Origin: Parasphingorhabdus flavimaris | GTDB lineage: Bacteria; Pseudomonadota; Alphaproteobacteria; Sphingomonadales; Sphingomonadaceae | Length of the DNA: 64,000 nt | Direction of reading: 5' to 3' | NCBI RefSeq assembly: GCF_013371215.1 | Contig: NZ_JABWMH010000003.1 | Span: 714,501-778,500, forward strand | Shown here: positions 45,811 to 51,178 of the stretch, one piece after another | How the letters are laid out: each line of letters starts with the position of its first letter | Position numbering within the stretch: position 1 is the stretch's first letter | Position numbers and translations under genes: made by a program | The notes under the pieces: model-generated | What the model was told of the DNA's origin: nothing | What the model saw: only the letters and a program-made list of their open reading frames with translations | Database searches by the model: none

Positions 45811-45922
45811 CGGCGGCGAAAATCTGTCGCTTTGCATGATTTTACCCGATTTGCCGGGGCCGTTCAGGCAAGAGCACAAGGAATATGCTATGATCACCTG
45901 AGTTAAAACAGGAGATATGGTC

Positions 45923-46609
45923 ATGGGGTACGGAAAAGTCTTTAGCAGAACATGCAGCGCCATCGCGCTTGCGACCACGCCGTTGGCGATGATGGCTTTC
46001 GCGGCGACCCCCGCCATGGCGCAGAGCACAGGCGTGAAAAGCCTGCTCGGCGACGCGTCCGACAATGCGCTCGACAAGCTGTCCGAACCCGGCGCATTCT
46101 ACGCGGACAAGGCGGTGCGGATATTGCTGCCCGGCCCGCTCGCAAAGGCCACCAGCATATTGCGTTTCACCAGCAAGGCGGGGCTGACCAAGGATATTAC
46201 CAAGACACTCAATGACGCCGCCGGCAGGGCCGCTCTCGAAGCCAAGCCGGTGTTCCGCTCGGCTATCGATGGCCTGACATTGCAGGATGGCGTCGGTATC
46301 GTGACCGGCGGCGAAGCGGCAGGCTCCGACTATTTGCGCCGCACATCGGGTGAAGAACTGGCGGTCAAGGTCCGGCCATTGGTGGAAAAGGCGCTCGGTG
46401 ACCTCGGTGCCTATGACCAGGTCGAACGGCTCGGCTCTATTTCCTCGCTGGCCCGACTGGGCGGTGCAGATTTTTCGCGTGATGGCCTGACCGACAGCGT
46501 CACCGATCAGGCGCTCGAAGGTATCTTCACCTATATCGGCAAGGAAGAAGCGAATTTCAGGAGGAACCCGCTCGACAAGGGCAAGAAACTCCTTAAGAAT
46601 ATATTCTGA
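45923..46609 (+). CDS. exported DUF4197-family protein
   Basis: A 228-aa protein with a signal peptide (MMAFAATPAMA-QS). The mature protein shows the DUF4197 pattern: GVKSLLGDASDNALDKLSEPGAFYADKAVRILLP, near-central helices, and the C-terminal DQALEGIFTYIGKEEANFRRNP. The second ATG (45923), eight bases after GGAG, is preferred to the one at 45917. The function of the family is unknown. Confidence 0.8.
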   Translation: MGYGKVFSRTCSAIALATTPLAMMAFAATPAMAQSTGVKSLLGDASDNALDKLSEPGAFYADKAVRILLPGPLAKATSILRFTSKAGLTKDITKTLNDAAGRAALEAKPVFRSAIDGLTLQDGVGIVTGGEAAGSDYLRRTSGEELAVKVRPLVEKALGDLGAYDQVERLGSISSLARLGGADFSRDGLTDSVTDQALEGIFTYIGKEEANFRRNPLDKGKKLLKNIF

Positions 46610-46631
46610 TATTTCAATTAGATAGAATTTA

Positions 46632-46656
46632 CTCAGTTGCGTTTCATGCAACTGAG
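46632..46656. repeat. 9-bp perfect inverted repeat after the DUF4197 gene
   Basis: CTCAGTTGC (46632-46640), loop GTTTCAT, GCAACTGAG (46648-46656). No T-run follows, so a terminator role is doubtful. It lies 16 bases before the -35 of the next promoter. Confidence 0.5.
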
Positions 46657-46672
46657 GTGACTCCATTCTCAA

Positions 46673-46700
46673 TTGAAACCTTTATCGGAAGCGACCATCT
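46673..46700 (+). promoter_or_regulatory. sigma-32-like promoter candidate upstream of the small-RNA locus
   Basis: TTGAAA (46673-46678), then after 16 bases CCATCT (46695-46700), resembles the RpoH pattern CTTGAAA-N14-CCCATnT loosely. Transcription would begin near 46708. The match is partial. Confidence 0.4.
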
Positions 46701-46762
46701 GGAGCCTGTAAGTTACGCAGGAAAAGAGATGTTTGACAGGCGTTTTAACAAGGAGAAAATCC

Positions 46763-46837
46763 ATGAGAACGCTTTTCAATATTGTCGCCGCCCTGTCCGT
46801 TAGCAGCATGGTATTGCTGTCAACGATTCAGGTCTGA
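46763..46837 (+). CDS. 24-residue hydrophobic mini-protein
   Basis: The ATG at 46763 follows an excellent AAGGAG site (46750-46755), and the ORF ends with TGA at 46835-46837. The peptide starts MRTLFNIVAALSVSSMVLLS, one membrane-spanning or signal-like segment with no mature domain. It sits between the promoter-like site and the tandem hairpins. It may be a leader peptide, a membrane micro-protein, or the remnant of an exported protein. No homologue is recognised. Confidence 0.45.
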   Translation: MRTLFNIVAALSVSSMVLLSTIQV

Positions 46838-46849
46838 GGCAAAGAGTTA

Positions 46850-46991
46850 CAATCCCGGCTGCCACCTCCTCCTCCCAATTGAGGCGCCGGGGTTGGTCCA
46901 AAGGTCCGGTTCTTCGACAATCTCCTCCCGATTGAAGGACCGGACCAGCGGACGACTGGCGCGACTATTTGCCTTCCCGCCGGCACCGTCC
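46850..46991 (+). ncRNA. tandem hairpin RNA with CCUCCUCCC loops (cuckoo/alpha-r14-like)
   Basis: Three hairpins in a row. H1 (46850-46895): CAATCCCGGC pairs with GCCGGGGTTG (one G-U), with an inner GCC/GGC; the loop holds CCTCCTCCTCCC. H2 (46903-46946): GGTCCGGTTCTT pairs with AAGGACCGGACC (one G-U), a CGA bulge, then CAATC/GATTG closing a TCCTCCC loop. H3 (46950-46991): GGACG/CGTCC outside CTGGCG/CGCCGG, with loop CGACTATTTGCCTTCC. Loops exposing the anti-Shine-Dalgarno CCUCCUCCC are the hallmark of alphaproteobacterial CcsR ('cuckoo') and alpha-r14 small RNAs. In Rhodobacter these follow a small-protein gene under a heat-shock-sigma promoter, as appears here. This is inferred from structure and motif only. 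Confidence 0.65.
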
Positions 46992-47449
46992 CAATCTTAT
47001 CCACCACATCGGCAGTAGTTTTCCACCGTTAACTATGCCGCCTGTGGATAACTTCATATTTTCCATTAGGTCCGACTCGGGATCAAGAGTCATATATGGC
47101 TTATCGGAAGGCCACCGGACGAACCAGCGACCAGTCAGCAATGACCCGCAGGACAGCCCGGGAACCGGAAGATCGTCGAGATGACCAGATTGTTTTTTGC
47201 AAGAAAGATAAAATGATCTCACGGCGGATGATCGGAGAATAGCCGAAAAGGGAAGGCGCAAGCCGGAACGGATCGACTGGACGAAGATCATCGGGTGACC
47301 GGACCCAATGCGGGTTGGAGACCGAAGCGAAGAAGCGCAAGCGGACACGTGGAAAACCACCAACCATTAACGCCTTCGGACCGGAAGCCGGACGCCGAAC
47401 AAGCGGCCGCTGGAATCGCAAGAGGACAGCAGCCCCAACAGAGGCGCAG
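46992..47449 (+). other. long non-coding stretch between the hairpins and the terminator
   Basis: No protein gene is convincing: the ORFs present overlap, lack ribosome sites and have no protein-like composition. The left part has four DnaA-box-like sites, at 46997 (TTATCCACC), 47019 (TTTTCCACC), 47043 (TGTGGATAA) and 47059 (TTTTCCATT). The right part (about 47215-47449) is purine-rich. It probably belongs to the transcript ending at 47484. Confidence 0.45.
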
Positions 47450-48768: not shown

Positions 48769-48940
48769 TGGCGCGCGTGCCAACCGTCGGCGATAACAGG
48801 TCTATTGATCGAATGGCTTCCTGACAGATGCTTCAATAATCGACATCCTCGATTGCTCTTAGGAAATTTACTGATTTCGGCATTGTTTCTCCTCGGGCTA
48901 ATCTTCTGTTCATCATGGGATGGTCCCGGAGGAGAGAAAG

Positions 48941-51178
<2,238 letters not shown>

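Follow-up and report, generated by a model that had tools for sequence, protein, structure and literature searches.

Does Parasphingorhabdus flavimaris carry a small RNA of the cuckoo, or CcsR-like, kind downstream of its DUF4197 gene, and if so, how closely does it resemble the RNAs of that name? The question was raised by an initial annotation of a 64,000-nucleotide stretch of contig NZ_JABWMH010000003.1 (the window, by which we mean the whole of the DNA analysed), in which three consecutive hairpins behind a heat-shock-type promoter and a mini-ORF were read as a sphingomonad counterpart of these RNAs. Cuckoo or CcsR-like RNAs are defined, as set out in PMC3927594 and PMC10746234, by two to four adjacent hairpins with variable stems, each with a CCUCCUCCC loop.

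Layout of the Locus

The elements considered here lie on the + strand between 46636 and 46953, in the order palindrome, promoter, 5′ untranslated region (UTR), 24-codon ORF, hairpin H1 and hairpin H2 (Table 1). The palindrome and the outer stem of H2 had both been overlooked in the initial annotation. When 46600–47010 was used as a BLAST query against 60 genomes, matches were found in 30 of 32 Parasphingorhabdus genomes (the two without a match are 80% and 67% complete) and in none of the 28 genomes from elsewhere in the order. The matches stop at about 46955, which is the end of H2. The DUF4197 gene was present in the retrieved stretch at 24 of the 30 loci, and in the window a short-chain dehydrogenase gene lies downstream of the RNA locus. 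Farther along, the window contains a KatG-like catalase-peroxidase ORF of 752 codons with a signal-peptide-like N-terminus (48920–51178); in several congeners, KatG is found close downstream of the RNA locus.

Table 1. Features of the locus, in window coordinates.
Feature	Position	Strand	Basis
DUF4197 gene, upstream neighbour	45917–46609	+	PF13852, 155.1 bits
Palindrome GTTGC-N7-GCAAC, LysR-type (T-N11-A) box	46636–46652	.	Conservation across loci
RpoH-like promoter ATTGAA-N16-ACCATCT	46672–46700	+	Constant spacing, consensus likeness
Predicted 5′ UTR with conserved CAGGAAA..ATGTTTGA..GGCGTT	46706–46762	+	Transcription start inferred
Shine-Dalgarno (SD) AAGGAG of mini-ORF	46750–46755	+	Sequence
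24-codon ORF, MRTLFNIVAALSVSSMVLLSTIQV, likely hydrophobic microprotein	46763–46837	+	Length conservation, dN/dS
Hairpin H1, loop ACCUCCUCCUCCCAAUUGA	46850–46895	+	Fold z and covariation
Anti-Shine-Dalgarno (aSD) CUCCUCCC in H1 loop	46869–46876	+	Sequence
Hairpin H2: inner stem, internal loop, outer stem	46896–46953	+	Fold z and covariation
H2 outer stem arms	46896–46899 paired with 46950–46953	+	Covariation
aSD CUCCUCCC in H2 loop	46922–46929	+	Sequence
Third hairpin of the initial annotation	46950–46991	+	Folds in window only; outside conserved RNA

Hairpins H1 and H2

Over 46838–46998, the predicted fold has a free energy of −65.2 kcal/mol, compared with −51.2 kcal/mol for shuffled sequences (z = −3.52), and the predicted transcript as a whole (46706–46960) reaches z = −4.64. 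H1 and H2 folded from the window sequence gave z = −3.19 and z = −4.94, respectively, bearing out the two strong hairpins with aSD loops described in the initial annotation.

The pairing is also supported by sequence changes among the 30 loci. RNAalifold predicted 24 pairs, 10 of which had changes on both sides. For a specified structure of 26 pairs, the number was 11 (31 cells with changes on both sides), and 94.8% of cells were paired, compared with 91.7% in shuffles and 26–53% with slid partners. Four of five covariation measures for this structure were matched by none of 500 shuffles; the number of pair types was unexceptional (122 of 500 shuffles, and 136 of 500 in the test with the outer stem of H2). 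The changed pairs are divided between H1 (6 of 13 pairs, with 96.1% of cells paired) and the inner stem of H2 (5 of 13), so that compensatory changes, on which the initial annotation had staked its claim, are present in both stems. In the outer stem of H2, held in a fixed register, 75% of cells were paired and three of four pairs had changed on both sides, giving 14 of 30 pairs when this stem is included. When H2 was excised and folded singly (without a shuffle control), an outer stem of at least three pairs formed at all 30 loci, with arms as different as GUCC/GGAC, AUCC/GGAU, ACCG/CGGU, GUGA/UCAC and UGCGA/UCGCA. A conserved RNA with two hairpins is thus very likely.

By this comparison, the third hairpin of the initial annotation falls outside the RNA. 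In the window it does fold (z = −2.63, a value reached by 2 of 200 shuffles), but in two relatives the corresponding stretch gave z = −0.87 and +0.51, and its region is not conserved in the alignment. Its 5′ arm, GGAC, is also one arm of the conserved outer stem of H2, so that the two would compete. We consequently rejected it.

Loop Sequences

On the + strand of the 64-kb window, CTCCTCCC is found at two places, one in the loop of H1 and one in that of H2; the − strand lacks it. First-order Markov sequences contained on average 0.095 such hairpins, and none of 200 contained a tandem pair. In the H1 loop, CUCCUCCC is found at 26 of the 30 loci, CCUCCUCCC at 22 (window included) and CCUCC at 29. 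The H2 loop, UCUCCUCCC in the window, has CYCCUCCC at 21 of 30 loci and is AUAUCCCCC-like at seven of the remaining nine; exact CUCCUCCC is found there at two loci and exact CCUCCUCCC at none. Mean column identity is 0.908 in the H2 stem and 0.663 in the H2 loop, the lowest of any part, compared with 0.71 in the spacer. Because the H2 loop is variable and mostly lacks exact CUCCUCCC, H1 alone can be taken as a firm aSD element; the alignment shows H2 as a conserved stem that carries a C-rich loop.

We considered whether the hairpins might be merely a structured 3′ end, that is, a stability element or terminator, with the microprotein as sole product and loops devoid of targets in trans. The poor conservation of the H2 loop, the selection on the ORF (see below) and the run of at least five T directly after H2 at 8 of the 30 loci would all fit such an arrangement. 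In the window, no terminator-like U-run follows H2. The H1 loop is harder to accommodate: its aSD core is the best-conserved unpaired part, at 0.943 even better conserved than its own stem (0.888), which a stability element does not need, and CCUCC is retained in all but one of the loci. A crude and small scan for targets, in which GGGAGGAG-N4-11-ATG sites were collected from three genomes, yielded 3, 5 and 5 sites (2, 0 and 0 in the reversed control), and by eye no gene was shared among the three, again in keeping with a structural role. On balance, we consider it doubtful that the hairpins are structural only, and action of the aSD loops in trans probable.

The 24-Codon ORF

The mini-ORF proposed in the initial annotation is upheld: its length of 24 codons is intact at all 30 congeneric loci. 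The median dN/dS was 0.21, with values below 1 in all 408 pairs retained (dS > 0.1) from 435, which are not independent of each other. Among 21 distinct sequences, residues T3, L4, F5, N6, A9 and Q23 are invariant, and no Pfam match was found at E 0.01. The ORF likely encodes a microprotein.

Codons 3–6 are near-invariant even at synonymous positions (30, 29, 30 and 30 of 30 loci), which argues for constraint at the RNA level on the start region of the ORF. A hairpin is predicted around the SD and start codon (46739–46779; GGCGUU/AACGCU and UUGA/UCAA). In an alignment of 27 of the 30 loci, however, none of its 12 consensus pairs had changed on both sides, and the fold of the 5′ UTR is therefore unproven. 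With its near-invariant synonymous sites, 46739–46779 may be a translational switch, and its hairpin possibly a thermometer. The same constraint could point to action of the loops in cis, with H1 and H2 pairing to the SD of the mini-ORF and limiting synthesis of the microprotein. The SD is indeed complementary to CUCCU of both loops, but so would be any canonical SD, and the fold of the whole transcript, from a program that does not model loop–loop contacts, separates the hairpins from it. We regard such autoregulation as unlikely.

Control Region

The sigma-32-like promoter reported previously is confirmed at 46672–46700, where the spacing of ATTGAA-N16-ACCATCT is identical at 29 of 30 loci. 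The sequence agrees with the sigma-32 consensus of E. coli, CTTGAAA..CCCCATNT. It also agrees with the RpoH1 consensus CTTGAA-N15-16-CCTATAT given in PMC4843759, in which rpoH1 is described as the only rpoH of Sphingomonadales. A search of the genome for TTGAAA-N14-18-ACCATNT returned seven matches including this locus, compared with none in the reversed control; judged from the ORFs, without a family search, no heat-shock gene was recognised behind the other six. The promoter of the organism's own groES differs from that of the RNA locus, and its hsp20 has CTTGAA-N15-CATATCT upstream.

The palindrome GTTGC-N7-GCAAC is exact at 25 of 30 loci, and its core, TGC-N7-GCA, is found at 29. By script, its distance from the promoter is 35 bases at 28 of 30 loci (one of the others was not matched by the expression used, and one lacks the box). 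Its centre lies about 64 bases upstream of the predicted transcription start, and most congeners have TGCA-N6-GCAA at about −70 to −57. By itself the box sequence is common, with 33 occurrences in the window compared with 31 expected, and GTTGC-N7-GCAAC has 8 sites in the genome compared with 7 in the reversed control. Since the motif is not enriched in the genome, the case for the palindrome rests on its conservation and position. A similar box has been described: in Sinorhizobium meliloti, the LysR regulator LsrB activates the RNA NfeR1 via TGCA-N6-GCAT at −72 to −60, according to PMC10746234. In Agrobacterium, VtlR, a regulator of the LsrB type, switches on an sRNA as well as a gene for a small protein, according to PMC7486931. 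Control of the locus by RpoH together with a LysR-type protein is plausible. Alternatively, TTG(A/C)AAC at −35 may belong to the LysR box as a second half-site.

One of the other seven palindromes in the genome lies 84–99 bases upstream of the start of a LysR-type gene, a lead found after the fact and not a test. The product has Pfam LysR domains, and its best NCBIfam match is the GcvA model, at 206.4 bits with a cut-off of 288. This palindrome, GTTGCAAACTTTGCAAC (L134:1501–1517), is situated between the GcvA-like gene (L134:524–1417, − strand) and a divergent AAA-ATPase-like ORF.

Distribution

Searches beyond the BLAST set returned the locus to the same genus. With model R1, seven of 396 genomes of the order had matches at E ≤ 0.01, six of them the six genomes of the genus listed in this sample, and the source genome had a single copy at this threshold; distant copies may have been lost, since only nine candidates per genome were scored. 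A profile of the peptide run against 298 genomes of the family gave six matches within the genus at E ≤ 5.6e-14, the best value elsewhere being 0.0123. A pattern for the 5′ UTR matched 27 records from named genomes, including Parasphingorhabdus marina DSM 22363, Sphingorhabdus sp. 109 and EL138; 22 of these contained the full 24-residue peptide, one was cut by the record's edge, and four were chance matches without the peptide. Of the 396 genomes, 48 contained a tandem-loop pattern; since many genomes also matched its reversed control, matches outside the genus were treated as chance. At 29 DUF4197 loci of other genera, the mini-ORF motif and the downstream hairpin pair were both absent; in five of them, the stretch contained one isolated hairpin.

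Neither model R1, nor the peptide profile, nor the DUF4197 loci gave a convincing second home. A cuckoo-like aSD-loop RNA downstream of a small gene and a sigma-32-like promoter has good support, but the description as a sphingomonad counterpart needs narrowing, since these searches placed the RNA in one genus. Searches of an open-licence library turned up no account of a comparable RNA from Sphingomonadales, and an earlier mention elsewhere is possible.

The best R1 match outside the genus was statistically marginal: 30.6 bits, with E 0.0015 for a single genome among the 396. Located in another genus of the family (L037:1501–1594), immediately 3′ of an AhpC-like peroxiredoxin gene, it is a pair of hairpins whose loops are CAUCCUCCU and CCUCCCCCUCCC.

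Relation to Known RNAs

No Rfam model matched the window at its gathering threshold. The ar14 model (RF02344) aligned to 46848–46947, spanning both hairpins, with 19.4 bits (E 0.18; gathering cut-off 58.8), and no ar14 match at E ≤ 5 was found in the 20 of the 30 loci that were examined. Across 190 genomes of the class, eight had ar14 matches at E ≤ 0.001, none of them above the cut-off (0 of 14 controls).

CcsR-type RNAs are linked in published work to DUF1127 proteins, which aid RNA maturation. The initial annotation had proposed a diverged host gene here; instead, the ORF is hydrophobic, 24 codons long and unrelated to DUF1127 genes, and DUF1127 (PF06568) was found in none of 99 family genomes, source genome included. 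The same search did find the domain in E. coli (1 of 14 controls) and, at 53.8 bits, in an ORF from one of the loci that the ar14 search of the class had brought up, where it is followed by at least seven CUCCUCCUCCC hairpins (counted by eye), making this a CcsR-like locus. Where a CIN1 locus is recognised by its DUF1127 host gene, the present locus has an ORF without a Pfam match; of the hairpins that define a cuckoo RNA it has two, adjacent, with exact CCUCCUCCC at 22 of 30 loci in H1 and at none in H2. By the ar14 score and the lack of DUF1127, the locus is not a formal member of ar14 or CIN1, and its H2 loops lack the exact cuckoo motif; we therefore call it a variant. Model R1 gave 17.0 bits for the CcsR-like locus and 20.0 for L102 (see below); since the wrong strand of the window scored 17.5, we do not claim homology with CcsR on this basis.

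In arrangement, the locus resembles CcsR1–4 and ccaF1 of Rhodobacter sphaeroides, in which aSD hairpins lie downstream of a small-protein gene with an RpoH-type promoter; CcsR1–4 come from the 3′ UTR of the small-protein mRNA, transcribed from an RpoHI/RpoHII promoter, as reported in PMC10253847 and PMC8625941. A further mark of CcsR-like RNAs is that RNase E cuts them out of the 3′ UTR. In P. flavimaris, by comparison, the host ORF has 24 hydrophobic codons and lacks DUF1127, one of the two hairpins keeps the canonical loop, and there is an additional LysR-type box. The likeness to alpha-r14/NfeR1 of Sinorhizobium lies in the variability of the stems, in loops of the CCUCCUCCC type and in a LysR-type T-N11-A box, which stands at a comparable distance upstream. 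Here, however, an ORF precedes the hairpins, whereas NfeR1 is portrayed in PMC10746234 with a sigma-70 promoter and three hairpins that all bear the same motif; its aSD loops silence ntrB, and LsrB activates it. AbcR1 and AbcR2 of Sinorhizobium are sRNAs controlled by LsrB and RpoH1, the two inputs that would come together at the present locus, but they differ in structure, and in PMC8844928 each input serves an sRNA of its own. The alpha-r8 RNAs SisA–D of Caulobacter share an aSD-type UUUCCUCCCU core, which in the account of PMC12559287 is single-stranded, without tandem hairpin loops. Since these C/U-rich RNAs are reported there to pair with a G/A-rich sponge, CrfA, the RNA described here might likewise be a decoy for purine-rich regulatory RNAs and not a silencer of mRNAs; we consider this very improbable. 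From the parallels above, the RNA probably works like CcsR and NfeR1.

Two further arrangements were seen elsewhere. In two genomes of one other alphaproteobacterial family (loci L099 and L105, also among the ar14 matches in the class), hydrophobic ORFs of about 40 codons share LLALYG.A.LTQ and have no Pfam match; behind them lie hairpins with CCUCCC in the loop, and a terminator. Loci L102 and L103, from two genomes of a single genus, each have two hairpins with CCUCCUCCC loops; the second acts as a terminator by its form, with a T-run, and no small ORF is evident upstream.

Proposed Function and Significance

We propose, with a probability of about 0.6, that the locus produces a stress transcript with two products, a hydrophobic microprotein and a 3′ aSD RNA that acts like CcsR and NfeR1. 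With the aid of a LysR-type regulator at the palindrome, RpoH would start transcription near 46706–46709, and the RNA is probably stress-induced. The 5′ part would encode the 24-residue microprotein, as the selection on its sequence supports, and the 3′ part would fold into the two hairpins revealed by covariation, to be freed by a ribonuclease or to act within the mRNA. The exposed C/U-rich loops, mainly CCUCCUCCC of H1, would pair with the SD of particular mRNAs and so keep these from being translated during stress, in the manner of NfeR1 and CcsR. H2 with its outer stem would also form the end of the transcript, serving as an intrinsic terminator where the clade has U-runs and presumably as a protecting 3′ stem elsewhere.

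More tentatively, aSD hairpins may have been recruited anew behind a different microprotein, of membrane type, in a family devoid of DUF1127, and brought under both a sigma factor for heat shock and a LysR regulator of the redox type. If so, the joining of a 3′ aSD RNA to the mRNA of a microprotein would be a stress module that arose by convergence, and the cassette rather than the host gene would be the unit of evolution. This suggestion is prompted by the hydrophobic ORFs, CCUCCC-loop hairpins and terminator of the unrelated L099/L105 family.

A peptide of 24 residues under purifying selection could easily be overlooked by gene callers. If our reading is correct, RpoH and LysR inputs that are separate in AbcR1 and AbcR2 meet at a single locus. 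Finding the same kind of RNA with another tiny hydrophobic protein raises the question of whether the protein partner is exchangeable, which can be tested, since the genus has cultured members.
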